A stretch of DNA of 41,736 nucleotides, from the IMG/VR virus record IMGVR_UViG_3300025133_000246, positions 1-41,736 of that record; one strand, written 5' to 3'. This DNA is from a virus. Both the position numbers and the translations under genes were made by a program. Below the pieces are notes generated by a model. The model was not told the DNA's origin and did no database searches. It was given only the letters and a program-made list of their open reading frames with translations. The first letter of the stretch is position 1, and each line of letters opens with the position of its first letter. Shown here piece by piece: positions 377 to 28,127 of the stretch.

Positions 377-655
377 TCAGGCTGGTTCGCCCATGACGCT
401 TTGACCTTGACCAGCACCCTGCTTATCAAGGATGTCAAGAGTAGCATCAAGGAAATCGGGCCAGTCATCATCCATGAGACCAGCTTCACCCATTGCAGTG
501 TAGACAAGATCTTCGACCTCAGCGTCCATCATGCTGTTGAGTGAGTTACCGTGCTCTGCTGAAATCTGGGCTGCAAGCTCTTCGGGTGAACCTGACGAGA
601 TGCTCGTGATTTCTGCGAGAATCATCTTTCGCAACGCTGAGCGTGTGAGCTTCAT
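377..655 (-). CDS. Small protein with putative capsid-targeting N-terminus (MKLTR family, copy 3)
   Basis: A 92-residue acidic protein of unknown function. It begins MKLTRSALRKMILAE, a basic amphipathic leader with a potential gp21-type protease site, L-A-E, ending at residue 15. The rest is acidic and helical in character (DAEVEDLV, DDDWPDFLDATLDIL). The start overlaps the stop of the previous small gene (ATGA), which suggests translational coupling. It is the last of three tandem small genes sharing the leader, between the second tail sheath gene and the tail tube gene. By analogy with T4 internal proteins it may be packaged in the head and processed there. That role is inference; no enzymatic motif is visible. 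Confidence 0.75.
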   Translation of the reverse strand: MKLTRSALRKMILAEITSISSGSPEELAAQISAEHGNSLNSMMDAEVEDLVYTAMGEAGLMDDDWPDFLDATLDILDKQGAGQGQSVMGEPA

Positions 656-945
656 TCGTATTCACCAGCAGCACCCGAAAGTGCGAGACGGCGAGCTGGA
701 GCATCTCGCTCTTCATCGTAGACATCCATGCCTTCACGGTCATCAGCAAAATCCTGGAGTGATCCTTCGACCTCTCCCATGACAAGCGAGCGCATGTCTC
801 TAACTTCGTAGCCCTTTGAGCTCAATACAGCGAAAAGAGAATCAAGCGCTCGATTCAAATCTTCAACGGCAGACTGCTGTGAACTCTCTAGAAGACGCAT
901 CTCCTGGAGAATAGCACGTCGCAGACTATTTCGTGTAAGCTTCAT
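652..945 (-). CDS. Small protein with putative capsid-targeting N-terminus (MKLTR family, copy 2)
   Basis: A 97-residue protein of unknown function. Its leader MKLTRNSLRRAILQE ends in a potential L-Q-E protease site at residue 15. The middle holds the module SLFAVLSSKGYEVRDMRSLV, which aligns with copies in the neighbouring small gene and in the small gene at 27876-28127, so these proteins are paralogues beyond the leader. Residues 81-95 (DAPARRLALSGAAGE) are encoded by a 46-nt sequence also present in frame inside the upstream tail sheath gene, apparently inserted at the C-terminus of this protein. The stop overlaps the next gene's ATG. Confidence 0.75.
   Translation of the reverse strand: MKLTRNSLRRAILQEMRLLESSQQSAVEDLNRALDSLFAVLSSKGYEVRDMRSLVMGEVEGSLQDFADDREGMDVYDEERDAPARRLALSGAAGEYE
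660..705. repeat. 46-nt in-frame repeat, copy A
   Basis: This stretch is identical to 5838-5883 at 45 of 46 positions. Both copies are read in the same frame and give DAPARRLALSGA(A/S)GE. The sequence has partial inverted symmetry: an inner GCAC/GTGC arm around CCGAAA and an outer CCAGC/GCTGG arm. Here it forms the last codons of a small MKLTR-family gene. Confidence 0.9.
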
Positions 946-952
946 GAGAATC

Positions 953-1231
953 TCAGTAGATGCTATCGAAAACGTGACCTACACCTTCCATGATGATGGA
1001 ACGCACAATGTCATGATCTTCGATTCCAGCGGCGTACATGTCGTCAGCAAGTTCACGAAGAGCATTCTGTACTCCGTGATGCATCAACTCGTCACGAGCG
1101 AGCAAGCCAGCGTCGCCTTCGTCAGCTGCAGCCTCTTCCCATGATGCTGACGGAACACCAGGAGGACCTTCATTGAGTGACTTCATCTCTCTCAAGATCA
1201 GAGAGCGAAGGGATTCACGTGTAAGCTTCAT
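953..1231 (-). CDS. Small protein with putative capsid-targeting N-terminus (MKLTR family, copy 1)
   Basis: A 92-residue protein of unknown function. Its start codon overlaps the stop of the sheath gene (TAATG), so it is probably translated by coupling. It begins MKLTRESLRSLILRE, with a potential L-R-E protease site at residue 15. The C-terminal half contains GIEDHDIVRSIIMEGVGHVF, which aligns with the G-x(4)-D-(I/M)-R-x-(L/I)-(I/V) module of the next small gene and of the gene at 27876-28127. Read together, the three tandem genes look like duplicated internal-head or structural accessory proteins. The position next to tail genes does not itself support a head role. Confidence 0.75.
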   Translation of the reverse strand: MKLTRESLRSLILREMKSLNEGPPGVPSASWEEAAADEGDAGLLARDELMHHGVQNALRELADDMYAAGIEDHDIVRSIIMEGVGHVFDSIY

Positions 1232-4224
1232 TAGACAACCGCACCTGCGTTGGTGATGACGAAGTCCAGGGACACGAACTCGATGGTGCGGGTCGGCTGG
1301 AGGAAGATCTTTCCACGAATCGTGTTGTTTTCCACATCGGCCTGAGTGGTCGTTGTGGTATCAATCTTGACTCGGAAGCGCTCAACGCCCTGGAGCTCTT
1401 GGATGCGCTGGAGGCGTGGGCGAACCAGTGCTTCAAAGCGTGCCAGTGTGCTGTCTCGGTTAGGCTCAAAGATGACCCGCCTGGAGAGCATCTTAACCTG
1501 ACGACGAATCTCGATTAGGAGACGACGTACGTTGACACGGTCAAGTGCACTCTGCGTTGCGAGAAGCGTCTTCTGACCCCAAACGACCGGACCCTTAGTT
1601 CCAGGGAACGTTGCGATTGGGTTGATCTTGGCGTCGTAGAGGACATCCAAGTTCTTTCGTCCCAGCGAAACAACAGTCTCGAGAGTAGAGTCCAGTGCTC
1701 CTCGGTTGAAGCCTGCAGGTGCGAACCACGGGTGAGCAACCTTGTCATTCAGAGACATGGCACCCAGGACAACAACCGAAGGCGGAACCTGGACATTTGT
1801 CAGCGTGAACGGGTCAGTGACGACAGCATCTGGGAAGTATGCCGCAGCGAAGCTGGTGTCCAGGTTACGGCTTGTGAAAGCCGCCGCGGTGTTCGTTACG
1901 CTAATGTCCTGGATAGCTGACGAGGTAACCACACTGTCAACAGTGTCTCGCTCATCGATGTCCATGATGTACAGAGCGTCGAATCGAGTCTCAACGACAT
2001 CGATCGCCTTGTCCGAAACCACGCTGTGACGAATACCTGGGACTGCAAGAAGCTTGATGTCAACCTCTGAAGTCTCACCCATGATGTCGAGAGCCTTCTT
2101 GAAGGCCATGACAGTAGGACCGTCATCCTGTCCCTGGTTCGCGTCATCCATCTCCTGGATGATTGCTGCATTAACCAGATCTGTCTTGTTCGGGTCAAAG
2201 ATATTGACTCCGTCGAATCCGCCCTGGATGATGAAGGAGAACTTAGCGTAGGTCTTGACAGTTAGGTCGCCGAAGTCATCGTTAACGCTAAGCGCACGAG
2301 TCTTGTTTGCAGCGTTAGCTGAGATGTTGCCCTGTCGGACGTACGAGGCGGATGCCCACTCCTTTGCATCGGCGAGTCCGTTGGAGCCAGTACGAACCTG
2401 CACATTCTCGAGAGAGAATGAGTTGTTGTTGAACCGGTCGCTATCAAGAACCGTTCCGCCAACGTCAGCTGTTCCAGCGTTATCACCAACCCACGGCGAC
2501 TGCCAAGTGGTGTGGAACTTCGGCTGGTACTTCGTGTAAGATGCAATCGTTGGATCGGGAACCAGCGAAGAGTTAGGTTCAGTGATGCTGGTCTTCCGCT
2601 CGAACTGCACTCCCCAGTAGAAGTTGCTGTTCTCTGTGAGCTTGGGATCCACACCCGTTGCAATGCTCTCTCGGAAAGGAACCGGAGGCTCAACCAGACG
2701 AGTGAACGCAAGGTTTGCACCTGCGTTGAACTGGTCAGTCACACCTGCAATGGTCGTCATGATAGACGAGCCAGAAGTTGCCAAGTGGTGAGGGCCGCGG
2801 AATCCGACGGGAAGCGCGGTTGAATCAACCTCAGCATCTTCAACTGACTGATTCATCTCAACTCGAACGAGTGCAGAGAGGTTCGGGAAGCTTCCCTCAA
2901 GAACTAGACGCTGACCGTCCGAATTCTTGTCGAAGTCCCAGTACCAATACTGGTCGCCAATGATCTTAGCAACGTAACGCTCAGAGCTTGGGTTGAGGCT
3001 AAGCTTGAGGAAGGACTCGAGAATGACTGGATCATCATCGTTATCGTTGAAGTCTCTGACTAGCAGGTCGAAGGTTCCGTAAAGATCCGTCTCAGAAGTA
3101 GACTTAGCCACGTTCCGAATGGAGATCTTGAATCTCGTGTTAGCAAAAGCGCCGTCGGACAAGGCGTGAACCTTGAACAGATTGACTGGGCTTCCACCGA
3201 ACTTCTGCGAAGTAACGTAAGGCGAGAACGGCGTGATGTACCGATCTTCGAAGCTCTCAAAGTTGGGAATCGTGGTTGAACCCACGTTGCGTGCCAACGA
3301 TGATGTCAGAAGGAAGGCAATCGGGTGGCGACCGCCATCGATTCCAGCACTTGATGTAATGATGCCCGAGCCAGTCGGTGCAGCAATCACAGGGTGAACG
3401 TCGTACTGCGAGTAGAGGTAGTGCCCCGCTGACTCAATGAGCTCTGGATCTGTGTTGAGGATGTTTCCGAAGTAGTTCGGTGCATCCACATCAAAGGAGC
3501 AAGTGAGCAGGTTGGGATACTGGTTCGTGTTGATGTGACCATTCAGAAGGATGACAAAGTCCTGCTGAGCCGAGGTCAAATCTACTGCTCCCGTCATTGC
3601 ACCCTGAGGACCCACAGCAGTGGCTGCTACAGTGTTCGAGGGCTGAGCCGACGGTGTGTTGTTTCCGGAGAGCATTGGAACGACACCCGACGGTGCCATG
3701 ATGACTGCTCGAAGGATGGGCTGTGCAATGTTCTCACCCGAGTTCTGGATGCCAGAAGTCGAGAAGATATCTGATCCTGCAGACTCAGACATGAAGCAGC
3801 CGAGGAAGTGAGTACGACCTGGGATGCCGTTGTTCACTGCCTTGCTGTTTCGTGCAAGAATACCCGAGTCCTGCACCTGCTGGGCGCCGACGACGAAGCC
3901 GGAACGAGTTACCTTTCCAGTGTTATTACCCGATGAAGTACGCTTGGTGCCATCACCAGCACCGAGCACTCGCATGTAGGTGACAGACTGGGCGTTACTC
4001 AGCCATTCGATAACAGCAAGTGGACCAAACTTCTCACCATCAGACTCACCAAACTTGGACACGAAGTCCTGTGTTGTGCCGAGTGTGACAGGAACGAAAG
4101 CGGGCCCCTGATTTGCGGTTCCGATAATTCCTGCAGGAACACCCGTGGGGGCAACATTCGCGGGACCGCTTAGGTCGATCTCACGAGCGCTTACACCAGG
4201 GCTGCGAAAAGTCAGTTCAGACAT
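1231..4224 (-). CDS. gp18: Tail sheath protein, gp18-like, paralogue B
   Basis: A 997-residue contractile tail sheath protein. The N-terminus (FRSPGVSAREIDLSG, then GVPAGIIGTANQGPAFVPV) and the C-terminal third (a WFAPAGFNRGALD segment, SALDRVNVRRLLIEIRR, PTRTIEFVSLDFVITN) are the conserved sheath core. The middle of roughly 500 residues is a variable insertion region. It is longer than T4 gp18 (659 residues). The gene directly upstream (4261-7326) is a clear paralogue with the same ends. GGAG lies just before the ATG and an ATAGGTA promoter-like element 27 nt upstream. Three small MKLTR genes follow and probably share its transcript. Confidence 0.92.
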   Translation of the reverse strand: MSELTFRSPGVSAREIDLSGPANVAPTGVPAGIIGTANQGPAFVPVTLGTTQDFVSKFGESDGEKFGPLAVIEWLSNAQSVTYMRVLGAGDGTKRTSSGNNTGKVTRSGFVVGAQQVQDSGILARNSKAVNNGIPGRTHFLGCFMSESAGSDIFSTSGIQNSGENIAQPILRAVIMAPSGVVPMLSGNNTPSAQPSNTVAATAVGPQGAMTGAVDLTSAQQDFVILLNGHINTNQYPNLLTCSFDVDAPNYFGNILNTDPELIESAGHYLYSQYDVHPVIAAPTGSGIITSSAGIDGGRHPIAFLLTSSLARNVGSTTIPNFESFEDRYITPFSPYVTSQKFGGSPVNLFKVHALSDGAFANTRFKISIRNVAKSTSETDLYGTFDLLVRDFNDNDDDPVILESFLKLSLNPSSERYVAKIIGDQYWYWDFDKNSDGQRLVLEGSFPNLSALVRVEMNQSVEDAEVDSTALPVGFRGPHHLATSGSSIMTTIAGVTDQFNAGANLAFTRLVEPPVPFRESIATGVDPKLTENSNFYWGVQFERKTSITEPNSSLVPDPTIASYTKYQPKFHTTWQSPWVGDNAGTADVGGTVLDSDRFNNNSFSLENVQVRTGSNGLADAKEWASASYVRQGNISANAANKTRALSVNDDFGDLTVKTYAKFSFIIQGGFDGVNIFDPNKTDLVNAAIIQEMDDANQGQDDGPTVMAFKKALDIMGETSEVDIKLLAVPGIRHSVVSDKAIDVVETRFDALYIMDIDERDTVDSVVTSSAIQDISVTNTAAAFTSRNLDTSFAAAYFPDAVVTDPFTLTNVQVPPSVVVLGAMSLNDKVAHPWFAPAGFNRGALDSTLETVVSLGRKNLDVLYDAKINPIATFPGTKGPVVWGQKTLLATQSALDRVNVRRLLIEIRRQVKMLSRRVIFEPNRDSTLARFEALVRPRLQRIQELQGVERFRVKIDTTTTTQADVENNTIRGKIFLQPTRTIEFVSLDFVITNAGAVV

Positions 4225-4250
4225 TGCTCACTGTCTCCATAGGTCGTGTG

Positions 4251-4258
4251 TACCTATC
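4251..4258 (-). promoter_or_regulatory. Putative late promoter, ATAGGTA, for sheath B
   Basis: Reads GATAGGTA on the minus strand, 27 nt upstream of the sheath B start, in the 36-nt gap between the two sheath genes. It fits the ATASKTA consensus of the other late-gene gaps. It would allow the second sheath to be expressed independently of the first. Confidence 0.5.
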
Positions 4259-4260
4259 CG

Positions 4261-7200
4261 TCACTCGAAGCTCACGCCGGAGTTCGTGATGATGAAGTCA
4301 ACTGCGACGAATTCCACCGTCCTGGTCGGAACAACGACAATGCGTCCGTTCAGACGGTTCGCCTCGATGTCTTCATCGGTATTGTTGGTTGAATCAACGA
4401 CCACCTTGAACGATTCCACACCCGCCTGCGTCTGGACAAGTGCCAAAAGAGGTGTGATTTGGGAAACGAACTTCTGTCGTGTAGCTGCTGTGTTCTGTTC
4501 GAAGACGAATCGCTGTGCGATGTCTCCAACGAGACGCTTAATCTCAAGCATGAGACGTCGGACGTTGACTCTGTCGAGTGCAGAACGTGCCTGCTGCAGA
4601 GTCTTCTGCCCGAAGATAACGAAGCCTTCTCGTGGGAAAGTAGCAATAGGGTTGATTCGTGTGTCGTAGAGGACGTCGCGATCGTTAGCAGTCAGTCGAA
4701 CATCAACATTGGCGACAAAGTCAAGGCTACCACGGTTGAAGCCAGCGGGTGCGAACCAAGGGTAGCTGCTCTTGTCATTGAATGCCAATGCGGCGATAGC
4801 AGCGATAGATGCCGGAACCGTTACTCGACGAGTGTTGACCGGGTCGTCAATCTGAACATCGGGGAAGAATGCCGCTGCGTAGCTGTTGTCTACTGCACGA
4901 CTGTCGAAGGCCTCAGACGTCTTTCGAACATCAGGCTTAGCAACACTGTTGTCAAAGAGGCGAGTGTTGTCTTCGTCGTACTCTGCAATATCCATCAAGT
5001 AGATGGCCTTCGAGTACTCACGAGTCTTAGTCGCAGCGTAATCGGTGACAAAGGAGTCACGAATACCAGGGATGGCGAGAATGTTCGTGTTGACCACAAA
5101 CGGATCCGTCATCAAGCGTGCAGCAGTTCGGTATGCGAACACTGTCTGGTTCGTCTTTCCAGTTCCGTTGACGTTAGTCGCAAGGCCAGGCGAGACGAAG
5201 GACGATGCAGCAGCACCACCAGTATCTGAGGAAGCTGCAAGGTCATTCATCCTGGCCGCATCACGGTCAAGCATGTTGACGCCGTCGAAGCCACCGTACA
5301 TGAATGTGCTGAACTTTGCGTATTCTGAGAACCTGTTGAAGTCGACGGACGACGTCTGGTTGACAAGAGTTGCATAAGTGATTCGGGACGAAAGCGTACC
5401 GTCTGTCACTGTGTAGTCAACAGGATCCACTACTGCGTTTCGGATGTATGCCATCTCCAGGATGTGGTCCTTGACACCGCCCGTGAGAGCAGTGACCGCA
5501 TCGTTGGAGAAAGCTACGCGAGCGAGAGTGAACTTGTTGTTACCGAAGGCATCAGCACCAGATCCAGTAACCAGAACATCCATCTTCTCGATGCCGAGGA
5601 ACTTACCGTAGGCTTCGACCAGCTTGTTCTTTGCAGAACCGATGTTCGGGTTGTAGATTGAGTTAGAAGTAGTTCCCGTAAGCGGAAGCCTTTCGAACTT
5701 GACACCCCAGTGGAAACGACCATCAACGATCTCGCCGACACCAGGATTTCCACTAAAGCCACCAGCAGTTGCAACCTGTCCCTTAGTGATCTTGAATCGC
5801 ATAGGAAGGGGTGGAACCACAGAGCCCGTCAGGACCGATTCACCAGAAGCACCCGAAAGTGCGAGACGGCGAGCTGGAGCATCACCTTCGCTAGCTAGAA
5901 CGGTGGCAGTGTCAGTAAGTGTGTCCGAAGTCTTCAAGACGGGGACGCCACGGAATCCGAATGGAAGTGCCTTAGCAGGGACGAGACCCTTCTCAACAGC
6001 AGGATTCATGACGATTCTTAGACGCTGTGACTTGTTCGGGTAGAGACCCTGAACAATCAGGCGACGTTCATCATCATCTGTTGCATCGAAGTTGAAGTAG
6101 ACCTTCTTGTCACCCACTGCCTTCGCAATGTAGTTCTCAGCCCGCGGGTTGAGAGACACCTGCGGGAAGGACTCGAGAACCTCAGGATTTGTGTCCTGGT
6201 CATCGTAAGTTCGGACGTTGACGGTGAAAGTACCGTACTCGTCAGCAGGGTTAGTCGAACCGCGAAGATCTCGGATAGAAACCTTGATCTTGGTGTTCGA
6301 GTATGCGCCGTCATCGAGGGCTTCGAAGTGGAAGAGGTCGTACTCAGTTCCACCGAAAGGCTGGGAGATGATTGCGGGTGTCCGAGGCGTTGTGTATCGA
6401 GTGTCAAATCGACCGTAAGCGTTTCGGAAGAGCTGTGCAGTATCGCCTGATGTGTCGGAGGTGAGTCCCGAACCAGAGACAACGGCAACGGTGCTTGCTT
6501 CTGTTGCGACAGTAGCCAACTCATCTTCGACTGCGAAGTCGGCGAAGAGGTAGTGCTCTTCGTTGATGAACTTCTCAGGATCCGTGTTGAGAATCTTTCC
6601 GATGTAATCTTCAAGATTCGGATCAAGTGAAGCTGTTAGAATACGAAGACCAACGTTACCGTCTGCGGTAGAGTATGCAGAAGTCGACGAAGAGATAACC
6701 AGCTTGAAGCGTCCGGCGGACGTAACTGTAGCAAGGTCATCTGCTGTGTCAGCATACGCCTCGCCAGTTCCGTTCAGGACCATGATGCGAGTCCCCGAAG
6801 GAACCAAGATCATTGCACGGACGAGATTGACGAAGCTGTCAACAGAGGTACCGTACGAGTCGTTGTCTGTGAAAGCAGTTGGGAATCCCACTGCCTCCGA
6901 TGCCGAGACAAAGTGGCGTGCTACAAGGAACTGCACTGCTCCCTGGTGTCGACCAGAAGCAACGTCAGCAGTTGTAGCAGTTCCTTCAATCTTGAAGCCA
7001 GCATTCGTCACAGTTCCCTGTGCGCGTGTCGTTTCAATCTCGGTGGTAGACTCATTCGAGCCTGCTCCGAGAACACGCATGTAGGTCACCGCCGTGCGAT
7101 GCTTCAAAAATTCTCGGACAGCATAGGGCCCGAACTTCTTCGGATCAAGTGTACCAAACTTGGACTGGAAATCTGGGAAGGAACCGACAGTCACAGGGAC

Positions 7201-7326
7201 AAAAGCAGGGCCCTTCTGGGACGTGCCGGCAATGCCCGCTGGAACTCCGACGGGGGACTGCTGACGTGAAGTCAGGTCAATCTCCTGTTCGAAGAACCCA
7301 GGGGATCGAAAAGTCTGCTCTGCCAT
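4261..7326 (-). CDS. gp18: Tail sheath protein, gp18-like, paralogue A
   Basis: A 1021-residue tail sheath protein. The N-terminus reads FRSPGFFEQEIDLT followed by GVPAGIAGTSQKGPAFVPV. The C-terminus carries SALDRVNVRRLMLEIKR and PTRTVEFVAVDFIITN, matching the downstream paralogue almost segment by segment. Between these lies a long variable domain where the two differ strongly. Residues 482-496 (DAPARRLALSGASGE) come from a 46-nt sequence shared with the small gene at 652-945 and absent from the paralogue at the equivalent place. SD AAGGAGA precedes the ATG, and an ATACGTA element lies 44 nt upstream. Either both proteins build one mixed sheath or one has another role; the sequence does not decide. 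Confidence 0.92.
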   Translation of the reverse strand: MAEQTFRSPGFFEQEIDLTSRQQSPVGVPAGIAGTSQKGPAFVPVTVGSFPDFQSKFGTLDPKKFGPYAVREFLKHRTAVTYMRVLGAGSNESTTEIETTRAQGTVTNAGFKIEGTATTADVASGRHQGAVQFLVARHFVSASEAVGFPTAFTDNDSYGTSVDSFVNLVRAMILVPSGTRIMVLNGTGEAYADTADDLATVTSAGRFKLVISSSTSAYSTADGNVGLRILTASLDPNLEDYIGKILNTDPEKFINEEHYLFADFAVEDELATVATEASTVAVVSGSGLTSDTSGDTAQLFRNAYGRFDTRYTTPRTPAIISQPFGGTEYDLFHFEALDDGAYSNTKIKVSIRDLRGSTNPADEYGTFTVNVRTYDDQDTNPEVLESFPQVSLNPRAENYIAKAVGDKKVYFNFDATDDDERRLIVQGLYPNKSQRLRIVMNPAVEKGLVPAKALPFGFRGVPVLKTSDTLTDTATVLASEGDAPARRLALSGASGESVLTGSVVPPLPMRFKITKGQVATAGGFSGNPGVGEIVDGRFHWGVKFERLPLTGTTSNSIYNPNIGSAKNKLVEAYGKFLGIEKMDVLVTGSGADAFGNNKFTLARVAFSNDAVTALTGGVKDHILEMAYIRNAVVDPVDYTVTDGTLSSRITYATLVNQTSSVDFNRFSEYAKFSTFMYGGFDGVNMLDRDAARMNDLAASSDTGGAAASSFVSPGLATNVNGTGKTNQTVFAYRTAARLMTDPFVVNTNILAIPGIRDSFVTDYAATKTREYSKAIYLMDIAEYDEDNTRLFDNSVAKPDVRKTSEAFDSRAVDNSYAAAFFPDVQIDDPVNTRRVTVPASIAAIAALAFNDKSSYPWFAPAGFNRGSLDFVANVDVRLTANDRDVLYDTRINPIATFPREGFVIFGQKTLQQARSALDRVNVRRLMLEIKRLVGDIAQRFVFEQNTAATRQKFVSQITPLLALVQTQAGVESFKVVVDSTNNTDEDIEANRLNGRIVVVPTRTVEFVAVDFIITNSGVSFE
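5838..5883. repeat. 46-nt in-frame repeat, copy B
   Basis: Second copy of the sequence at 660-705, with one mismatch (A for C at the tenth base of the plus strand). It encodes residues 482-496 of sheath A, inside a variable loop between conserved flanks (an ALPxGFRG segment before, a VxPPxPxR segment after). Sheath B lacks the sequence there. Confidence 0.9.
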
Positions 7327-7369
7327 GGAGTTCGCTCTCCTTAACGCGGGTCAGGTCTGACGCTAGACA

Positions 7370-7377
7370 TACGTATC
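7370..7377 (-). promoter_or_regulatory. Putative late promoter, ATACGTA, for sheath A
   Basis: Reads GATACGTA on the minus strand, 44 nt upstream of the sheath A ATG in a 68-nt gap. It matches the ATASKTA consensus. Confidence 0.5.
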
Positions 7378-7394
7378 GTCCGGACCCTCAAGTT

Positions 7395-11755: not shown

Positions 11756-13663
11756 TTAGATGATGTTCAGGTCCAGGACCGTCACCGTACCGTAGAAGTC
11801 GGCGCGAACCATCTTCTTACCGTACCGAGTCATCACACCCTTACGAGGAGTGAAGTCCTCAGGAGCGAAGATCGTCGGGGTCACGATGAGAGGAACGTAC
11901 GGAGCGTAGACGTATCCAGTCTCCAGGTAGCTGCCTCCCTTGTAACCAACGAGGATTCGGTTTCTCGGGAAGTACGGATCCTTGTACACCGTGAAGCGGT
12001 TGGACAGAGTACCAACGGCCTCAGCACCAATGCTGAACGGCGCGCCAACCTGGCCCATTCCGTCGATCGACAGGGAAGGCTTGTAGAGGACCGATGCCTC
12101 CAGGATGGTGCAGACATCAGGCGAGGTGACGATGAAGTTCGCCGCGCCGCGAAGCGTCTTACGGTGGATCTGGTTGGCAACATCGATGATTGTCTCGATG
12201 AGAGTCTCGTACCACTCACGAACCGTACCAGTGAACTGCGGGCCAGTAGCCAGCGTGCTCGACAGGGTCTGCTCCGCACCAGTCTCCTTGTTGACGAACT
12301 TGCCAGGAGCACGGCTCCAGTAGAAGTTCGCGCCCTGTGCCTCGTGAATGAGGTCGCCGAGGATCTCTCGGTCAATCTCAAGGGCAACCTGCTCAGAGAG
12401 AATCTGAGTGAGCTCCACCTCAGCGTCGAGGCTGTGGTAAGCGTTCAGGTCCTGAGCGAGCTCAGGAGACCAGCGAGCACGCAGCTTACGGGTCTGTGCC
12501 GTCACGGCAATCGACTCAATCTTGATGTCGATTTCAGGGATTGCAGGAGACGGCTGAGTCGCGAAGTCGGACTCGAAGGTCGGGATGGTGAGTGCCGAAG
12601 CGTCACCATTGACATCGAGACCTGCAGCGACGACGTAGGAAGCCGAGAGGTTGGTGGTTCCAGCCGAAACGTGAGCACCAGAAACAACGGCCATCAGGAC
12701 GGAGTTAGCGGTGGTACGTGTAACGTGTGGGTTCGAAGTGAACACGCCGCCCGAGTAGGTACCGAGCTGGTTGAGACGACGAACGTTGACGATGTTGCTT
12801 CCACCCTGGACGGAACCAGGAAGAGCAGCCAGACCGGAGGCAGCGAGACCCGCGCTGAAGAGCGAGAAGTCCTTGACCATGGTCAGGTCGACGTTAGCAT
12901 CGAATGCGTTCAGGTCGATCATCATGAACGAGAAGCGACCGGTGGAGTCCAGAGTATTGTTCTCAGCATCAACCTCAATGAGGTTGGTGATCTGAGGGTC
13001 GAACATCATGTGACGTCCATCAGTACCCGTCGCGAAGGCCAGCGAACCGGCTGCGAGAGTAGCGCCACCTGCCCAAGCACCAGAAGCCACGATGAGACCG
13101 GCCGTTAGAACGGACGTGCTGTGGATCTTGGTGTAGGAAGTACCAACGAGGTCGTACTGACCGCCGGCGGCCAGCGAACCAGAGCGAATGCCCTTGCCAA
13201 CCGGGCTGTTGTAGATGGACTGACCAACGTCGTAGGTCTCGGCACCAGCTGCACCAGCGGCGCCAGTCTGGAGGTTAGCGTCACCACCGACGCGAGTACC
13301 GTAAGTGTAGTCCAGGTAGAAGAGCAGGCCAGAAGGCAGGCTCATCGGCTGAATCGACACCAGCTCGTTGGCAACAAGGCCACCGAAGACTCGACGAACG
13401 ATTGGGAATGCAATGTTGCTGAAACCGCGGATGTCGCCGCTGCTGGAGCCTGCTCCGCCGCCAGTGCTAAGAGACGAAGTCTCTCGCAGAAGCTGCATTG
13501 CCTGGTTCTCGAGCATGCGTGCCATGTTCTCGCGCTTGGTCTTCTCGAGACCACGCAGGAGACCAGTACGGCTCCACTTCTCAACGAGAGCGTTGGACTC
13601 GCGAGCGAGGTGACGCTCGCGAATGCCCTCAGTGAGCTGTCCAAGGGTGAAGTTCTTACCCAT
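11756..13663 (-). CDS. gp23: Major capsid protein, gp23-like
   Basis: A 635-residue major head protein, starting at MGKNF, where GAGGAG lies 10 nt upstream (an upstream in-frame GTG overlaps that site and is less likely). The first 60 residues are a charged helical prohead segment ending MLENQAMQLLRE, followed by a Ser/Gly-rich stretch. L-R-E at residue 61 is a good site for cleavage by the gp21-type protease, about where T4 gp23 is cut (residue 65). Then AFPIVRRVFGGLVANELVSIQPMSLPSG matches the gp23 fold entry (VRRAIP...GVQPMNSPTG in T4). A short CACAG/CTGTG hairpin (13679-13691) abuts the ribosome site. The terminator follows the stop. Confidence 0.93.
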   Translation of the reverse strand: MGKNFTLGQLTEGIRERHLARESNALVEKWSRTGLLRGLEKTKRENMARMLENQAMQLLRETSSLSTGGGAGSSSGDIRGFSNIAFPIVRRVFGGLVANELVSIQPMSLPSGLLFYLDYTYGTRVGGDANLQTGAAGAAGAETYDVGQSIYNSPVGKGIRSGSLAAGGQYDLVGTSYTKIHSTSVLTAGLIVASGAWAGGATLAAGSLAFATGTDGRHMMFDPQITNLIEVDAENNTLDSTGRFSFMMIDLNAFDANVDLTMVKDFSLFSAGLAASGLAALPGSVQGGSNIVNVRRLNQLGTYSGGVFTSNPHVTRTTANSVLMAVVSGAHVSAGTTNLSASYVVAAGLDVNGDASALTIPTFESDFATQPSPAIPEIDIKIESIAVTAQTRKLRARWSPELAQDLNAYHSLDAEVELTQILSEQVALEIDREILGDLIHEAQGANFYWSRAPGKFVNKETGAEQTLSSTLATGPQFTGTVREWYETLIETIIDVANQIHRKTLRGAANFIVTSPDVCTILEASVLYKPSLSIDGMGQVGAPFSIGAEAVGTLSNRFTVYKDPYFPRNRILVGYKGGSYLETGYVYAPYVPLIVTPTIFAPEDFTPRKGVMTRYGKKMVRADFYGTVTVLDLNII

Positions 13664-13723
13664 GATGTTTTTTCTCCTCACAGAATCTGTGAAATTTTGA
13701 GTTCTCTTCGCGAGACCCGTTGG

Positions 13724-15454
13724 TTAGTCGTTGGAAGGAATACCAGCGAGCTGTGCCCACCTGTCTGTTGTGGAGCCACCGCGAGCAGAGCTCGAAGCAG
13801 AGCCGCGACGACGGGATGAACCACCAGCGGATCGATGTGCAGTCTCAGTCAGGGATCCAGACTTCTTGCTCCGCTTCCCACCGAGGGAATCAGTGAAGCC
13901 CTTGTACAGCAACTTGACCTCACGTAGAGTCTTGGCATTGTCCAGGGACTCGACGATGGACTTGATCTGTCCCTCAGAGAGTGCCTTGGAGTGTACCAGC
14001 CTATTCACGTAGAGGAGCTTGGCATTGAACAAGTTCTGTTCGTTGAGTTGCTTGCTGAGCTTGTCGACTGCTTCCTGCAGCTCAGCTACCTGCTTGCGAA
14101 GAGCTCGATTCTGTCGGCTCTCATTCTTCAGCTTGTTGAGGACTCTAGCCTCAACCTTAACGGTGCCTACAGCGTCGTGCTTGTTGAGGTCAGAATCGCT
14201 GGAATCAACGAATGCCTCACGCTCCTTGGCTGCACCACCGAAATCGTCTAGGACCTTGGGATCATCTGCGGCGCCCTCAGCGACCCGACGCATACGCGCC
14301 AGCTCCCTCTTGAGCATTCCCTCATCAATCTCAACGACCTCGTCATCAGCGAGACCAGAGACGTCCATGTCTGCCATGTCTTCCTCTCCTCCCTCGTCAC
14401 CGAGGTCAAGTTCAGTGTCCATTCCTTCCTCACCCTCGCCATCAAGGTCGTCTGAAACAACCTCAATGTCTAGAGCAGAAAGGTCGAAATCATCTTCGGG
14501 GAGACCTGTGAGCTTGAGCATCAGGTCCTCTTCATTTAGACCCATGTCGTCTGCTTCCAGCTCCATCTCGCCTTCTTCATCATCAACGTCGACGTCGAGC
14601 TCCTCTTCTTCACCACCGAAGTCGAGGTCCTCGCCACCTTCATCATCAACCATCTCGAGGTCGCCCTCACCCTCACCGGGGAGAACTTCGACATCGAGGT
14701 CGGCCAAATCTAGTTCAACATCATCAGGAAGCGCGAGCTTCAGCATGACGTCCATTTCTGTGAGCCGCTTGCGTGTGGCCATCTCCATGATCTCCTTACG
14801 AAGTGACTTGATCTCGGAGTCGAGGCCGTTGGACCTCGTTCCCACAATACCTATCACTCCCTCTTCGAGGATTCCCATCTCAAAGAGCATCTTGTCGCAC
14901 AGGCGTCCAAGAAGACCAAGGCTGCGGGTCTCGCGGCCAATGTCTGACTCGATGAGGTGAGCCCCAAAACCAAGGCTGTGACGGATACGTCGCATACGTG
15001 ACTGAGCTTCATTGACGGAAGAAGGCTTCTTTGCCTCTCTCAACGTCATGAGCGCACGTGCTGATTCCATGTTAAGAAGTAGCTCGTCGCTTCCTTCTGC
15101 CTCGAGACCGGGAGGAGTTCCGGGTCCAACGCCACCAGCGAGATCGTCATTGAGGACATCGTCGGTAGTTAGTGAATCGAGGTCGAGGGTGACCTTGCCT
15201 GCTTCATCAGGGAGAGAAACGCCTGCAGGATCACCTGCAACGTCACCATCGAGGCCTCCTTCGAGGTCTCCCATTGCGCCGAGCAGAATATCGTCCTCAG
15301 CACCTACGGGATCCTCAGAGAGAATCTGGCGCTCGATGAGTGCACGAATGCGAGGCGAGATGGCCTCGACGACTGCCCGAGTAGCATTGTCCTCAGCAGC
15401 CTTGCGGAGCTGCTGAGCCTCGAGAATTGCTTCTTGGTAAAGGCTCGTTGACAT
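13724..15454 (-). CDS. gp22: Prohead scaffold (core) protein, gp22-like
   Basis: A 576-residue, very acidic protein between the protease and capsid genes, the place of T4 gene 22. The start MSTSLYQEAILEAQQL resembles the T4 core and internal-protein leaders and has a potential I-L-E protease site at residue 12. Residues 233-292 and 309-364 are an internal duplication (MLKL...LPDD...LDL..LDVEV, then a Glu/Asp/Gly run). Residues around 420-510 are probably coiled coil. The C-terminus ends DRWAQLAGIPSND, echoing the end of the 17030-17530 protein. It is about twice the length of T4 gp22 (269 residues). An ATACGTA element lies 28 nt upstream. Confidence 0.85.
   Translation of the reverse strand: MSTSLYQEAILEAQQLRKAAEDNATRAVVEAISPRIRALIERQILSEDPVGAEDDILLGAMGDLEGGLDGDVAGDPAGVSLPDEAGKVTLDLDSLTTDDVLNDDLAGGVGPGTPPGLEAEGSDELLLNMESARALMTLREAKKPSSVNEAQSRMRRIRHSLGFGAHLIESDIGRETRSLGLLGRLCDKMLFEMGILEEGVIGIVGTRSNGLDSEIKSLRKEIMEMATRKRLTEMDVMLKLALPDDVELDLADLDVEVLPGEGEGDLEMVDDEGGEDLDFGGEEEELDVDVDDEEGEMELEADDMGLNEEDLMLKLTGLPEDDFDLSALDIEVVSDDLDGEGEEGMDTELDLGDEGGEEDMADMDVSGLADDEVVEIDEGMLKRELARMRRVAEGAADDPKVLDDFGGAAKEREAFVDSSDSDLNKHDAVGTVKVEARVLNKLKNESRQNRALRKQVAELQEAVDKLSKQLNEQNLFNAKLLYVNRLVHSKALSEGQIKSIVESLDNAKTLREVKLLYKGFTDSLGGKRSKKSGSLTETAHRSAGGSSRRRGSASSSARGGSTTDRWAQLAGIPSND
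14363..14758 (-). repeat. Internal duplication within scaffold gene
   Basis: Two copies of a roughly 55-60-residue acidic unit lie at residues 233-292 and 309-364 of the scaffold protein. Both open with (D/E)xMLKL, continue with LP(D/E)DD and a LDLxxLD(V/I)EV motif, and end in Glu/Asp/Gly-rich sequence. The similarity is at protein level; DNA identity looks lower. Confidence 0.6.
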
Positions 15455-16688: not shown

Positions 16689-16967
16689 TTAGGAGCGAAG
16701 CGAACGAATGCGCTTCTTGGAAGCCTTAGCAGCTTCCTGCACCTTGCGAAGCTTCGAGCGAAGAACTGCCTCCTTGACCTTGAGAGCGGCCGCGTGGTCG
16801 ATCTCCTTCTCAAGAGTGTCGGCGTACTCATCAGCATCGACTTCCTTGGTCTTTGCTGCGACAGCGACGAGTTCCTTCTCATGCTTCTTCTTGTCTGCAT
16901 CCAACTTGGATGCTTCTTCAAGAATGATCTGCTTGAGGAGTGCGGGGGTGAGCTTTCGGTTAGCCAT
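16689..16967 (-). CDS. Small basic coiled-coil core protein, gp67-like position
   Basis: A 92-residue Lys/Glu/Ala-rich helical protein. The start is set at MANRKLT because GGAG lies nine nt upstream; an earlier in-frame ATG at 16976 directly abuts that site. The leader NRKLTPALLKQIILEEASK matches the window's MKLTRxxLRxxIxxE leaders, shifted by three residues, with I-L-E and L-E-E sites at residues 17-18. The rest looks like a continuous charged helix ending KKRIRSLRS. Size, charge and place by the protease recall T4 gp67, a small prohead core protein, but the assignment is positional. Confidence 0.65.
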   Translation of the reverse strand: MANRKLTPALLKQIILEEASKLDADKKKHEKELVAVAAKTKEVDADEYADTLEKEIDHAAALKVKEAVLRSKLRKVQEAAKASKKRIRSLRS

Positions 16968-17001
16968 TGTCGTCATCTCCGGACGGTAGTCGTGACAGTA
17001 G

Positions 17002-17029: not shown

Positions 17030-17530
17030 TTACTGACCTGGCAGATGATTCTTCTTAGATGCAAAGGCCAGGTGAGCCCACTTCTCTGACGAGCCTGGAG
17101 CAATCTGATCAAATACACGAGAAGGATCACCGTTCATGGTCGGACCAGATGTTGGCGAAGCCTGTCCTCCGGGTCCTGCGAGGGCATTACTTCCCAGAGC
17201 TGAGTCTTGTGCACCCAGATTCTGAAGAGACCCACGTGCTGTGTCAGAAAGAATCTCTTGCAAGATTGGATCTGACGTGATCTGATTGACGGCTGTTTCT
17301 ACGTTTCTGTCAAAATTGGGATTCGGAATCTGTCGGGGTGTATCAAGAGCTGCGGAACGGGGACGATGGAGCAGTGCTTCATTTGTGCCCAAGCTCGGAC
17401 CTCGCATTGCAACACGAGATTCTACAGACTCAGTCAAAGCTGCAGGTGAACTTGCAATCCCTTCTGCAAGAATTTCAATCAAGCATTCCTTGACGAGGCC
17501 TTTCAGAGTACCTCGTGTCATCTTCGCCAT
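17030..17530 (-). CDS. Putative prohead core/internal protein next to protease
   Basis: A 166-residue protein of unknown function. It begins MAKMTRGTLKGLVKECLIEILAE, the MKLTR-type leader with potential protease sites L-I-E (residue 19) and L-A-E (residue 23). The body is polar and rich in Asn, Pro, Ser and Gly. The end reads SEKWAHLAFASKKNHLPGQ and shares the (K/R)WA(H/Q)LA motif with the end of the scaffold protein. It begins where the protease gene stops. Leader, tail motif and position suggest a scaffold-associated substrate of the adjacent protease. Confidence 0.7.
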   Translation of the reverse strand: MAKMTRGTLKGLVKECLIEILAEGIASSPAALTESVESRVAMRGPSLGTNEALLHRPRSAALDTPRQIPNPNFDRNVETAVNQITSDPILQEILSDTARGSLQNLGAQDSALGSNALAGPGGQASPTSGPTMNGDPSRVFDQIAPGSSEKWAHLAFASKKNHLPGQ

Positions 17531-18144
17531 TAGTTCCAGCCCAAAATGTCGTTGAAGAGTCGATCTACTCGGTCACTCTTTCGGAATTGCTGCTTAAGAG
17601 CCTTAGCCTCTCGAGGTGTAATCTCTCTCCCTTCACGCATCATGAATGCGCCAGGAGTTGAAGGCTCACTAACAAAGTCCCAGCAAATGAGCTGGAAATC
17701 TTCCTGGACGACCTGGCGGTCACCATCCCGACGGGTTGAGCCCACACCTCGGGAAGAAATGCCAAGTGTTACACCGGACTCGACAAGGCTCTGGAGAATC
17801 TTCCCTGCGGGTGTGTTGAGAAGCTCGACGTCACCGTAGACATCATTGCCTTCCATCCACGCCTTGACGATGAGATGTGAGGTATTCTTGAGCTCTACGA
17901 CTGAGCTCTCAGGGTGATCACACTCTCCCAGGGCTCTACGCTCGCGAATGAACTTCTGGTAGTTCCGAACTTCGCGCTCAAGAATTGCCTTGGGATAGAC
18001 ACGTCCATTCTGATTGAGAGTGTCTGCCTTCTGCAGAATCCCACGAAGAATGATCTTTCCATCATGAGACTCTCGAGACTCCCGAATCATCTCAGTGTTG
18101 ATATCGAAGGGTGTCCACGAGTGGAGTAGGTGCTGTGCACTCAT
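17530..18144 (-). CDS. gp21: Prohead core protease, gp21-like
   Basis: A 204-residue prohead protease (T4 gp21 / herpesvirus-assemblin-like serine protease clan). The catalytic His is in GECDHP (His77) and the nucleophile in the GISSRG motif (Ser130 or Ser131); NGRVYPKAILEREV and DFVSEPSTPGAFM are further family blocks. In T4 this enzyme is activated in the prohead, cleaves scaffold, internal proteins and gp23 after (I/L)-x-E, then digests itself, making room for DNA. Here the genes directly downstream carry such sites near their N-termini. Start and stop overlap the neighbours, so translation is probably coupled. Confidence 0.92.
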   Translation of the reverse strand: MSAQHLLHSWTPFDINTEMIRESRESHDGKIILRGILQKADTLNQNGRVYPKAILEREVRNYQKFIRERRALGECDHPESSVVELKNTSHLIVKAWMEGNDVYGDVELLNTPAGKILQSLVESGVTLGISSRGVGSTRRDGDRQVVQEDFQLICWDFVSEPSTPGAFMMREGREITPREAKALKQQFRKSDRVDRLFNDILGWN

Positions 18145-22682: not shown

Positions 22683-23068
22683 CAGCCGAGATCCACGAAC
22701 GTAATGTGGCGGTAGTACGCAGTACGCTTGGGAGAGATGTGAGGCTGCAAACTGACCATCTCAACAGAAGGAACAGTGTTCTTGACCTTCGTCTTAAGAG
22801 CATGGCCAATCTCAGCCTTGAACTCCTTCTTGATCTCGGCTAGATACTTCCCAGTGACCTGCACAGCCTCGTTCTCGAGAGCGGGCATCTGCTGGCTCAT
22901 AGCATGGTCAGATGCGAATGTCACCAACGTAACGTACGAAACCTTCAAGGCTTCGCCTCCAATGATTTCGCACTTAAGCGACATCGTGGGCGCCTTTGCG
23001 GTTGATGAACGTCCCCAGGTCGAGTTAGCGATGTTTCCCAGAACTCGAACTTCTTCAAGTGTCAGCAT
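22682..23068 (-). CDS. Conserved hypothetical protein upstream of terminase
   Basis: A 128-residue protein with blocks APTMSLKCEIIGGEALKVSYVTLVTFAS and PHISPKRTAYYRHITFVDLG, joined by a helical acidic segment. I recall like proteins in marine T4-like phages but not their function. Its place just before terL would suit a terminase small subunit, yet no helix-turn-helix or gp16-like pattern is evident, so I do not make that call. AAGGAG precedes the ATG, and an ATACTTA element lies 25 nt upstream, making this the first gene of the packaging and head operon. Confidence 0.7.
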   Translation of the reverse strand: MLTLEEVRVLGNIANSTWGRSSTAKAPTMSLKCEIIGGEALKVSYVTLVTFASDHAMSQQMPALENEAVQVTGKYLAEIKKEFKAEIGHALKTKVKNTVPSVEMVSLQPHISPKRTAYYRHITFVDLG

Positions 23069-23092
23069 TGTTGCTCCTTAAGCGGCAGTACG

Positions 23093-23100
23093 TAAGTATC
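23093..23100 (-). promoter_or_regulatory. Putative late promoter, ATACTTA, for packaging/head operon
   Basis: Reads GATACTTA on the minus strand, 25 nt upstream of the 22682-23068 gene, in the gap that separates the replication/recombination cassette from the late head genes. It matches ATASKTA exactly. Confidence 0.55.
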
Positions 23101-23103
23101 CCC

Positions 23104-23421
23104 TCACTCGATCGGAAGTCTGATCGGTGAAGACTGTCGCCTCGCAATCTCGTGGTCGACGTCATCTTGCGAAGGGCGCCAACCCTCCATCCACGTGCTT
23201 CGCCGAGACTCTGCCCATCGAGATGCACACCAAGAGCAACACTGAAACTCTCTGTACAGACGGGAATCATCTGCATCTCGCATGATGATTCTGCAAACAG
23301 GACAATCCAGCGGAACGTGGGACTGTTCTCCTGTCGGAACAATCACATCGAATCCAGCCGGATGCTGTCGGTATTTACGCGACCTGCTAATCGGTCGCCA
23401 GATTTCTGAGGGAGAGGTCAG
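23104..23421 (-). CDS. Zinc-ribbon protein with probable CTG start
   Basis: A 105-residue protein of unknown function, read from CTG at 23421. No ATG, GTG or TTG lies near the true N-terminus, but AGGAG sits six nt before this CTG and the first 25 codons read as convincing protein (TSPSEIWRPISRSRKYRQHPAGFD). The shorter GTG start at 23346 has no good ribosome site. A four-cysteine cluster (CPVCRIIM, then CCSWCASRWAES) suggests a zinc ribbon, followed by EGWRPS. I recall related small proteins in marine T4-like phages. A 9-bp hairpin spans the ribosome site and start. It follows the gp47/gp46 fusion by about 37 nt. Confidence 0.65.
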   Translation of the reverse strand: MTSPSEIWRPISRSRKYRQHPAGFDVIVPTGEQSHVPLDCPVCRIIMRDADDSRLYREFQCCSWCASRWAESRRSTWMEGWRPSQDDVDHEIARRQSSPIRLPIE

Positions 23422-23440
23422 CTTTCACTCCTGACCTCTC
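23412..23440 (-). promoter_or_regulatory. Hairpin holding the ribosome site of the zinc-ribbon gene
   Basis: A perfect 9-bp inverted repeat (GAGAGGTCA/TGACCTCTC) with an 11-nt loop. On the minus strand the loop contains GGAG and the CTG start lies at the loop-stem border, so the hairpin displays the ribosome site while partly pairing the start codon. It is 18 nt after the gp47/gp46 stop and lacks a T-run, so it is unlikely to be an intrinsic terminator. Confidence 0.55.
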
Positions 23441-23458
23441 GATCCTATGTCAGGCAGC

Positions 23459-26400: not shown

Positions 26401-26626
26401 TGGGCCAGCGATCTGCAAAGATCCTGAAGAACCACGTGAGGCAATCAATAAGTTCAGGCGAGATGCCCTGTGTCTTGGTGTGGAAAATGTCTCCCACCAT
26501 GACGACCATGTCAGGCTTAAGCTCTTCAAGCTGCTCGACTAGTGCTGTAAACGATGCGCGATACTCATCGTGCCGGGACATTCCACGCCAGTGGATGTCG
26601 GCAATGTGCGCAATGCGAACTCCCAT
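23459..26626 (-). CDS. Fused recombination nuclease-ATPase (gp47-gp46 / SbcD-SbcC)
   Basis: A 1055-residue fusion starting at MGVRIAHIADIH (GGAG just upstream; an ORF start 57 nt earlier has no support). Residues 1 to about 360 are an Mre11/SbcD/gp47 phosphoesterase: D10-x-H12, GD45-46, GNHD 81-84, FHG 152-154 and GDIH 185-188. Residues about 370-1055 are a Rad50/SbcC/gp46 ATPase: Walker A GIFGRNRRGKSS at 400-411, long coiled coils, a hook with C727-x6-C734, the signature SGMEK and Walker B LIIDE near 993-997. T4 makes these as two proteins that resect DNA ends for recombination-dependent replication. Here one chain would guarantee 1:1 assembly. The hook spacing differs from the usual CxxC. 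Confidence 0.92.
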   Translation of the reverse strand: MGVRIAHIADIHWRGMSRHDEYRASFTALVEQLEELKPDMVVMVGDIFHTKTQGISPELIDCLTWFFRIFADRWPTHVTLGNHDGIMLNLDRQDAISPIISAMNHPNLFLYKDSGVFPTGHDGFNWCNFSCFDEKSWPRVKPVPGDINIALFHGAVWGSTTDSDWKLEGDVDTKFFDDFEYTLLGDIHKVQFLRDDKKIAYCGSTIQQNYGEGPGKGFLLWDIRGKDDFDVEFHEVPHTMPFITVDWAGSVPLTMEEARLCPKGARYRVRTREPIPHAEITQIKNELKIVQEAAEVVFQDKYMPDTNQITVLDENLQKSDLLDPETHMRLLQEYLAGVKLEDEDWELIEELVSRYVKTIARDGPTKRSMKWSVKKMGFTHTFAYGKDNVIDFSKLGGITGIFGRNRRGKSSVIGTLVYGLFNTTDRGAVKNIHVINDRKDYCRATIDFTSNGEHLQVDRQSVRKKDRNGKESAITHLNFWKLDSEGKPMMGSDGKQAGDLSGEQRRQTEKIIRDRVGTADDFLLTSLAAQGEMNTFIKDRATARKSTLTKFMGLDVFEKMSGLIKEESSDIKSQVRNAPDRDWDATVAEMKIERKALLVKGKALSKVLAEKRGLLQSHRLRLSGFDNADAVTPADVHRAVRQLTTSQRQLEQAEATLRECEAADKSLQTKIERIDNLRMSIDIDALKGQLRDILEFEDSLRTLKHSHEREAAKLERQERSAKILETVPCGDQFSTCKFIKNSHRDKEQIADQKQNVTELISQVAVTQSSLDKYKKEELEERIHKFDTLIQKGSKLRLEISSKQMETTVARTEILTLTHQIERGEANLVDLKSRVVDDEVDAELCRLKSEISELQDEVSKVDANRISVASRIGRLDGDMDNLVEERDKYKELRRTWRVYEHLTQAVSKRGIPLQIIKSQLPVINAEIAKILQEVTSFTVELEADSNSNAMDVYIDYGDSKRIIEMASGMEKLVASLAIRVALINISSLPKTDMLIIDEGFGSLDDLNVEAVNRMLVSLKKWFRHILIITHVDGVKDVVDNVIDITWNGKDAKIVYE

Positions 26627-26706
26627 TAGGTCTCCAAGCCATCTTCGAAGATAACACAGTATTCCCAACCACGCTCTTCGCAATAATTGCGTGCAATCTT
26701 GGGCAT
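26626..26706 (-). CDS. Possible 26-residue micro-ORF before the gp47-gp46 gene
   Basis: An ATG at 26706 opens a 26-codon frame (MPKIARNYCEERGWEYCVIF, then EDGLET) whose TAA overlaps the ATG of the fusion gene (TAATG). The peptide is rich in aromatic and charged residues, like real protein, and the overlap suggests a coupled leader peptide. The ribosome site is weak (AAAGAG). No function can be proposed beyond coupling. Confidence 0.35.
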   Translation of the reverse strand: MPKIARNYCEERGWEYCVIFEDGLET

Positions 26707-26846
26707 CTAATCTCTTTCTACTCTCTGATCATCTTAACGACCCAGAGATCAAGTGTATTAACGCGGAAGACCGATGCGGTCAAAGGTGGTCTAATCAACT
26801 GCAACTTTCTCTCGTCGCGGGATTAGTCCAATCACCATGTGTTTAA
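26629..26846 (-). other. 218-nt interval between primase and recombination gene
   Basis: Besides the possible 26-codon ORF, this interval shows a 15-codon frame with ATG at about 26834 (MVIGLIPRREKVAVD then TAG), and an ATAGTTA promoter-like match at 26844-26851 overlapping the primase stop. It is too far (about 138 nt) from the micro-ORF to be a typical member of the late-promoter set. Nothing else is supported here. Confidence 0.3.
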
Positions 26847-27836
26847 CTATGTTGACCCGCTAGACGGAGACCAAGCATTGATAGTCATTCTGAGTCCTTC
26901 CATGCTTGTCCAGGGTCGAGCAGCTTTGTGAGCAGCCAAGAACGATTTTCGGTCCATCTCGCCTACGTCAGCAAACGATCCCAAATTCATAATCCGAACA
27001 GGGACGTCGTATGATGCAAGAAGCTTAGCAATCTTGACTGACTTGCGAGTGGCGTCTGCATCAAGCGCCATAACTACAGGAGTTCGATTAGAGACAAGCT
27101 TCCAAAAGAGCAGATGATCTTCGGTGAGCGAAGAACCCTGAAGACATGTGGCATTGCCGACGCACTTGACTAGATCGAGTGGACCCTCTACTAGAGTGAT
27201 CTCTTTGCCCCAATCAACATTGAGCTCGTTGAAGACGATGCCAATCCTGTCCACTTTGGGAATCAGGTAATTCGGCCATCCGCGCTTGTCAAATGTTCGT
27301 GCGGCGTACGTGTTCAAATACCCATCTTCGTCGAAGGATGGGACAATAACCCGATTATCAAAGCGAGGCTCTGAGGACATGCCGATCTTGAAGCGCCAGA
27401 GCTCAGATTCTCCAATCCCTCGGCGCTTGAGATAATTGACTGCTCTCTTAATCCGAGGATCCCGTGAGCCCAAATGCTGCGCGATAATCAGGTAGTCCTC
27501 GGGAACATGTACCTGTTGCTCTTCTGGCTCGTATCCACCCTCATCGCCCAGAAATCGAGCACTCTTGGGTGCAAATTTGTTGACGTACTCTGCGACTTCT
27601 GTGGGAGTGCAAATTCGTCTAAGGATTGGCACGAGTGTGTTGTGAGACTTGAGTCCACACACCCAGCAATGCGACTGGTCCTTGTCAATGTGAATCGAAA
27701 GCTTTCGCTTGCCCTTCTTTTGACTCCCGCACTTGGAGTTCGGACAGCGAACAGAGATGTTCACACCGTCACTGGCGAGTGAAACTCCTCCAAACACCCG
27801 TCGGAGAAATGCAAGCTTGTCTTGGCGGCTTCCCAT
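26847..27836 (-). CDS. DNA primase, DnaG/gp61-type
   Basis: A 329-residue primase that would make RNA primers for lagging-strand synthesis. The N-terminal zinc ribbon has Cys31, Cys36, Cys57 and Cys60 (CPNSKC...HCWVCG). A central segment (VNYLKRRGIGESELWRFKIG) is the linker seen in DnaG-type catalytic cores. The Toprim fold carries Glu217 (LVEGPLDLVK) and the Asp259/Asp261 pair (ALDADA). It is close in size to T4 gp61 (342 residues). No helicase domain is fused. No clear Shine-Dalgarno lies before the ATG; a small ACCCT/AGGGT hairpin (27857-27870) precedes it. Confidence 0.88.
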   Translation of the reverse strand: MGSRQDKLAFLRRVFGGVSLASDGVNISVRCPNSKCGSQKKGKRKLSIHIDKDQSHCWVCGLKSHNTLVPILRRICTPTEVAEYVNKFAPKSARFLGDEGGYEPEEQQVHVPEDYLIIAQHLGSRDPRIKRAVNYLKRRGIGESELWRFKIGMSSEPRFDNRVIVPSFDEDGYLNTYAARTFDKRGWPNYLIPKVDRIGIVFNELNVDWGKEITLVEGPLDLVKCVGNATCLQGSSLTEDHLLFWKLVSNRTPVVMALDADATRKSVKIAKLLASYDVPVRIMNLGSFADVGEMDRKSFLAAHKAARPWTSMEGLRMTINAWSPSSGST

Positions 27837-27875
27837 TCGGGAAAAGTCTACTGCACACCCTCATCAGGGTACAAG

Positions 27876-28127
27876 TTACAGTGATTCGATATCATATCGA
27901 AGCGTCTCATCATCTTTTGATGATTTGACTTGCGTGATAAGCATTCTGATGTCACTGAGATCAAATCCTTTTTGCGACATGATCTTTTCGATCGACTCTA
28001 GATCCGAGACAGCAGCATTCATGTTCTCAAGAAAAGATGAATAACGGTCACTGGCAGTTGCAGCTGACGGGAATTCGACAATCTCTTCTTTGATGATCTG
28101 TCTCAGGAGTCGGCTGGTCAGTTTCAT
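27876..28127 (-). CDS. Small protein with putative capsid-targeting N-terminus (MKLTS family, copy 4)
   Basis: An 83-residue protein whose leader MKLTSRLLRQIIKEE matches the leaders of the three small genes at 377-1231, with an I-K-E site at residue 14. The segment MSQKGFDLSDIRMLITQV aligns with the SSKGYEVRDMRSLV module of the gene at 652-945, so this is a distant paralogue about 27 kb away, sitting among replication genes. AGAGGG precedes the ATG. If the leader directs proteins into the head, this one would be a packaged protein encoded outside the head cluster. Unknown function otherwise. Confidence 0.75.
   Translation of the reverse strand: MKLTSRLLRQIIKEEIVEFPSAATASDRYSSFLENMNAAVSDLESIEKIMSQKGFDLSDIRMLITQVKSSKDDETLRYDIESL

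Follow-up and report, generated by a model that had tools for sequence, protein, structure and literature searches.

A recurring N-terminal leader as a probable capsid-targeting propeptide in uncultivated T4-type phages

A leader of some 16 residues, with the consensus MKITKxQLKxIIKEE, recurs at the N-termini of otherwise unrelated proteins in a group of uncultivated T4-type phages which is mostly known from ocean DNA. From its sequence and genomic context, the leader is probably an N-terminal capsid-targeting propeptide of this large group, that is to say a short tag which would bring a protein into the prohead and then be removed by the prohead protease. The window considered here, meaning the whole stretch of DNA that was analysed, is a 41.7-kb IMG/VR fragment of a T4-type phage with genes for terminase, portal, gp21-type protease, Gp23 capsid, two tail sheaths and tail tube; its genes are read on the minus strand, as are all the window genes given below by coordinates. 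A sequence-only reading of the window had already proposed that the leader is a capsid-targeting signal, with cleavage after residues 14–15. That proposal is partly supported: the leader is real and modular, is nearly restricted to phage-like contigs, is strongly associated with the S77 protease, occurs on two conserved head-module proteins and has beyond it an excess of LxE before a small residue; the proposed position of the cut is not supported.

The leader-bearing proteins of the window

All six of the leader open reading frames named in the sequence-only reading are present, on the minus strand, and score 11–36 bits on a leader profile, far beyond chance. The training set for this 16-column profile, which ignores M1, was 200 leaders found on contigs other than the window. 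Given that the best non-leader gene of the window scores −15.9 on it, and that the maximum among 1527 shuffled N-termini is −2.8, the leader is a real feature of these proteins.

Three of the genes form a trio between a tail sheath and the tail tube. The tail-sheath gene (1231–4224; PHROG tail sheath, E 1e-59) is upstream of the trio and overlaps it, the sheath stop being shared with the start of the first leader gene (TAATG), while the start of the tail tube gene lies downstream (2–325; PHROG 4542 tail tube, E 1e-11). The first protein of the trio (953–1231; N-terminus MKLTRESLRSLILREMKSLNE↓G, where the arrow marks the position after the Glu of a candidate site; profile score 11.0) has a leader of approximately residues 1–21 (1231–1169) and a predicted cut at LNE21↓G. 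The second (652–945; MKLTRNSLRRAILQEMRLLE↓S; score 12.0) has a leader of approximately residues 1–20 (945–886) and a predicted cut at LLE20↓S. The third (377–655; MKLTRSALRKMILAEITS; score 14.4), the gene for which overlaps that of the second via ATGA, has LAE15 and lacks, near the leader end, any LxE with a small residue after it. The fourth leader protein (27876–28127; score 35.9) is encoded among replication genes, its neighbours being genes for a RuvC-like resolvase and a DNA primase.

The remaining two proteins belong to the head module. One of them adjoins the protease (17030–17530; MAKMTRGTLKGLVKECLIEILAE↓G; score 12.6) and has LAE23↓G within its leader-type N-terminus. The other (16689–16976; KLTPALLKQIILEEA; score 19.4) corresponds to an open reading frame previously drawn as 16689–16967, for which there is an additional in-frame ATG at 16976; numbered from the ATG at 16967, it contains LEE18↓A. 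The conserved Glu of the leader is residue 15 in the 377, 652 and 953 proteins (named here, as below, by their first coordinate) and residue 14 in 27876. Beyond the leader, only one pair among the six has related bodies, namely 652 and 27876 (z 6.8).

Spread and modularity of the leader

In IMG/VR, at least 120 stretches match a degenerate DNA pattern of the leader, compared with 1 for its scrambled-codon version, and the leader is absent from 27 of 27 random viral contigs of at least 40 kb. Bacterial and archaeal genomes totalling 257 Gb yielded 11 leader stretches, all of them in MAG contigs. The richest such contig, of 306 kb, has 22 leaders together with its own S77 protease and probably belongs, therefore, to a phage that was placed in a bacterial bin. 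Taken overall, the leader is essentially restricted to phage-like contigs. A protease suspected beside the leaders of MAG contig L294 proved to be absent there.

Across 188 nonredundant leader proteins, conservation is high at residues 1–16 and reaches background by residue 23; similarly, all that an alignment of 109 leader proteins retains is MKITKxQLKxIIKEE and a single Glu close to residue 22. The leader genes of five relatives number 26, 10, 25, 8 and 22 and are often in tandem arrays (in G017, 18 neighbouring pairs against 3.4 expected), and the bodies that follow the common 16–22 residues are unrelated. Pfam matches to the bodies each occur in a single member, and include pentapeptide repeats, an AAA_33 P-loop kinase (encoded adjoining a protease), FliG_C and several DUFs. 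Conservation between phages is lacking for most leader proteins. Moreover, internal in-frame copies of the leader number about 12 in six genomes, as opposed to 1 in shuffled sequence, and some directly follow ISE↓S, IKE↓S or LFE↓G. These copies suggest tandem fusions, a few of which could be assembly errors, and indicate that selection acts on the leader as a module.

It is in this context that the leader might be regarded as the mere conserved remnant of a rapidly duplicating paralogous family, devoid of any targeting role, as the tandem arrays and the related bodies of 652 and 27876 would allow. Such an origin is very improbable, however, since it accounts neither for the unrelated known domains among the bodies nor for the excess of internal in-frame copies.

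Some individual bodies have further features. In an alignment from five relatives (A2), one leader protein matches ribosome modulation factor (PF04957, E 1e-4), and YxxGY-type motifs can be seen by eye in a few other bodies. A protein with a weak leader (L318:2026–2955) matches Zeta toxin/AAA_33. In L083:2900–3967, the leader is joined to a body whose motifs (DLE, GHNIISFD and HTAVDD) resemble those of DEDDh exonucleases, for which Pfam gave no support and PDB sequences no match; an AlphaFold model made without an alignment had a pLDDT of 37 and was discarded.

A protease-like site at the end of the leader

The pattern by which leaders were selected constrains residues 1–14 only, and the test for a protease site covers residues beyond these. 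At residues 17–32, [ILVM]xE[AGSNT] occurs 97 times against 33.2 expected from shuffling the same residues, with a z of 12, although paralogs inflate such z-scores. For the stricter [IL][ILVM][KRSTNA]E[AGSNT] the figures are 25 and 1.4. There is no excess when Asp, Lys or Gln replaces Glu, residues 41–56 show a deficit of [ILVM]xE[AGSNT], and in the bodies protease sites are not enriched or are slightly depleted. The Glu of the first site is mostly at residues 18–22, with a minor group at 27 that has a longer linker. A strict LxE↓small site at residues 17–40 is found in ~37% of leader proteins and is lacking in ~63%. Part of the signal may be no more than the ending of a helix, in that L is enriched at −3 from the Glu as well as at −2, and the association with a small P1′ residue, significant in five genomes, was not replicated in an independent set and is not relied on here.

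The same motif is found in the capsid proteins of the group, which have L(L/V)(K/R)E↓(A/T/S/Q) at their putative processing junction. In the Gp23 major capsid protein of the window (11756–13681; Pfam E 1e-77) this junction would be QLLRE67↓TSS (~13492–13481), with the motif conserved in relatives, and it appears to correspond to the T4 gp23 cleavage. The excess of sites and the occurrence of the same motif at the capsid junction mean that the leader ends in an apparent prohead-protease site. As the earlier reading had noted, (I/L)xE triplets do exist at positions 14/15, but later LxE triplets followed by a small residue are present in 652, 953, 17030 and 16689, the independent statistical signal is at residues 18–27, and residue 15 is usually Glu. 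The cut is thus probably at residues 18–27 rather than after 14–15, and E14/15 as the sole cleavage site is not favoured.

Association with the S77 protease and the head module

The gp21-like protease that had been recognised in the window is indeed a Peptidase_S77 (17530–18144; Pfam E 4e-28; PHROG 207, E 2e-51). Across contigs, all of at least 40 kb, Peptidase_S77 is present in 35 of 48 with the leader and in 3 of 27 random controls that were not matched for habitat (Fisher p 2e-7). In other words, the leader is not equally common where a gp21-type protease is missing, a possibility which the sequence-only reading had itself raised. Among leader contigs of at least 100 kb the protease is found in 18 of 20, for which the control amounts to only four contigs and the comparison is not significant alone. 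The 13 leader contigs without S77 are also without Gp23, HK97-type capsid and tail sheath, such that they look like fragments missing their structural modules and not like counter-examples.

Relatives have conserved members of both the 17030 and the 16689 family in the same place, adjoining the protease. The 17030 homologs at this position have profile scores of 14–31, and every aligned member of the family has KECL(V/I)EILxEG, containing LxE↓G. The 16689 homologs of sister phages begin MKLTSRLLRRIIEEEVAKF, which is nearly the leader of the scattered gene 27876 (MKLTSRLLRQIIKEEIVEF). Leader genes lie within ~3 kb of the protease in 9 of 19 head modules, in one of which the sole leader genes are the 17030 and 16689 homologs. 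Agreement in strand between leader and protease genes was set aside as evidence, since most of the coding in these genomes is on a single strand.

Conservation of the two families within the head module would also be expected if leader proteins were parts of the prohead core or scaffold, docked by the helix and then mostly degraded or released, making them assembly factors and not cargo; the gp21 substrates of T4 do include gp67, gp68 and gp22 (PMC9026906). Nevertheless, this role is unlikely for the leader proteins as a class, most of which are unconserved between phages, have wholly different bodies and are present at 8–26 per genome, with real domains (P-loop kinase, pentapeptide repeats) and without enrichment of protease sites. 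The two families do adjoin the protease gene in the manner of T4 gp67 and gp68, albeit after it rather than before it, and no Pfam or PHROG core-protein match was obtained for them, so that what they have in common with gp67 and gp68 is their genomic neighbourhood alone.

Alternatively, the leader could be a helix that docks or localises its proteins at a different machine (that of replication, the host membrane or the ribosome), the LxE enrichment then reflecting the end of the helix. The leader does have the character of a basic amphipathic helix, with hydrophobic residues enriched at both −2 and −3 from the Glu, and some leader genes are far from head genes, one of them among replication genes. 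Against this stand the association with the S77 protease, the lack of the leader in random contigs, its presence on conserved head-module proteins and the enrichment of Glu alone, not of Asp, Lys or Gln, in a motif that matches the capsid junction; we consider a role of this kind quite unlikely.

The capsid-targeting propeptide remains the best explanation, even though the position of 27876 among replication genes, the ten leaderless records described below, the share of leader proteins with no strict site, the signs of a mere helix end in the site signal and a sequence that is not recognisable as the T4 CTS all count against it.

Comparison with known systems

In T4, the capsid-targeting sequence (CTS) has 10–19 residues, the gp21 site is L/I-X-E, and the internal proteins have only this leader in common (PMC9026906, PMC12373910). 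The best reading is that the leader described here is an analogue of the T4 CTS with a sequence of its own. Like the CTS of IPI–IPIII and Alt, which is cut by gp21, it is a short N-terminal sequence on unrelated bodies with (I/L)xE at its end, it is co-encoded with a gp21-family (S77) protease, and it is carried by small accessory proteins of which there are several per genome. It is, however, longer (~16–22 residues as opposed to 10–19), shares by eye only MK- and IxE with the MKTYQEFIAEA type, and occurs on up to ~26 genes per genome where T4 has a handful. Also unlike the CTS, it appears in tandem arrays, in internal copies and on two conserved head-module proteins, and its packaging is proposed by analogy. 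On the leader profile, T4 gp21, gp22, gp67 and gp68 are all far below threshold, with gp67, gp68 and gp22 at −35 to −25.

The head proteins of the giant phages phiKZ and SPN3US provide a second comparison, in that many head and ejection proteins have removable N-terminal propeptides, cut after Glu by gp175/gp245, a diverged relative of gp21 (PMC5694885, PMC9026906). These propeptides differ from the leader in being mostly of more than 100 residues, in having no single shared short leader and in their S/A-x-E motif.

A tblastn search of cultured phages with a 22-residue leader consensus and a 55-residue head-module N-terminus gave no match, possibly due to low-complexity filtering, and phage records were therefore searched by pattern. 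Ten records of T4-type isolates or single cells, namely P-SSM2, S-SKS1, T4, KVP40, HTVC008M, RM378, immuto, Mel-JY01, Vibrio phage D485 and the single-cell virus AG-345-L05, gave no leader match. A T4-type phage, then, need not carry the leader, and within this sample the leader-bearing group has no cultivated member. Leader genes do occur in one uncultured phage record, of 484 kb. A literature search that covered few subscription journals found no paper with the leader string or the idea.

Proposed mechanism and its implications

Leader proteins would be made, presumably late, and in the window partly from genes that overlap the tail-sheath gene. The T4 late-promoter motif TATAAATA was not found upstream of the leaders and is hardly found upstream of other genes either. 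The basic amphipathic helix of the leader (L8, I11, I12 and L16) would then dock on the core or scaffold of the prohead, which would likewise be the site of the two conserved head-module proteins that bear leaders. A candidate docking partner is the scaffold-like protein in the gp22 position (13724–15454), assigned from this position and from its N-terminus, MSTSLYQEAILEAQ, which resembles MLKEQLIAEAQ of T4 gp22; it has neither a Pfam nor a PHROG match. The S77 protease would cut after (I/L/V/M)xE, mostly at residues 18–27 and possibly at E14/15 too, after which the freed, unrelated bodies may be retained in the head and pass together with the DNA into the next host, in the manner of T4 Ip1–3. 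In this regard, bodies that are slightly depleted in sites and contain recognisable domains argue for cargo, not for a shredded core.

More tentatively, these phages could possess a standardised form of delivery, with at least 20 cargos per genome, one removable tag, recruitment of new cargo by acquisition of the tag, and some cargos that are tandem fusions with internal tags, released by the head protease. If the leader is indeed a targeting propeptide, then hundreds of proteins now listed as 'hypothetical' in uncultivated phages can be predicted, from a string of 16 residues, to be virion cargo, many of them perhaps anti-defence or take-over factors for the first minute of infection, like T4 Ip1–3. 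The T4 internal-protein strategy would, likewise, be in use on a far larger scale outside enteric phages, and the leader would offer both a searchable signature of injected proteins and a compact tag for loading phage heads. What large environmental phages inject with their DNA thereby becomes a directly testable question.

Other features of the structural genes

In some relatives there are tandem Gp23 capsid genes, two in each (L137; G050:176509–180120). Many relatives also have, between protease and scaffold, a gene for a small basic protein that resembles ribosomal protein bS21 (head modules L130–L149; compare PMC9723584), the equivalent of which in Mel-JY01 is annotated RpsU. In the window, the tail-sheath genes at 1231–4224 and 4261–7326 are tandem and diverged, with ~1000 residues each. 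A 46-nt repeat of 98% identity links positions 660–705, at the 3′ end of leader gene 652–945 (DAPARRLALSGAAGE), with 5838–5883, in the middle of the sheath gene 4261–7326 (DAPARRLALSGASGE). The best patches between the two sheath paralogs are just ~77–80% identical, and the repeat arose either by recent copying of a patch or through chimeric assembly.
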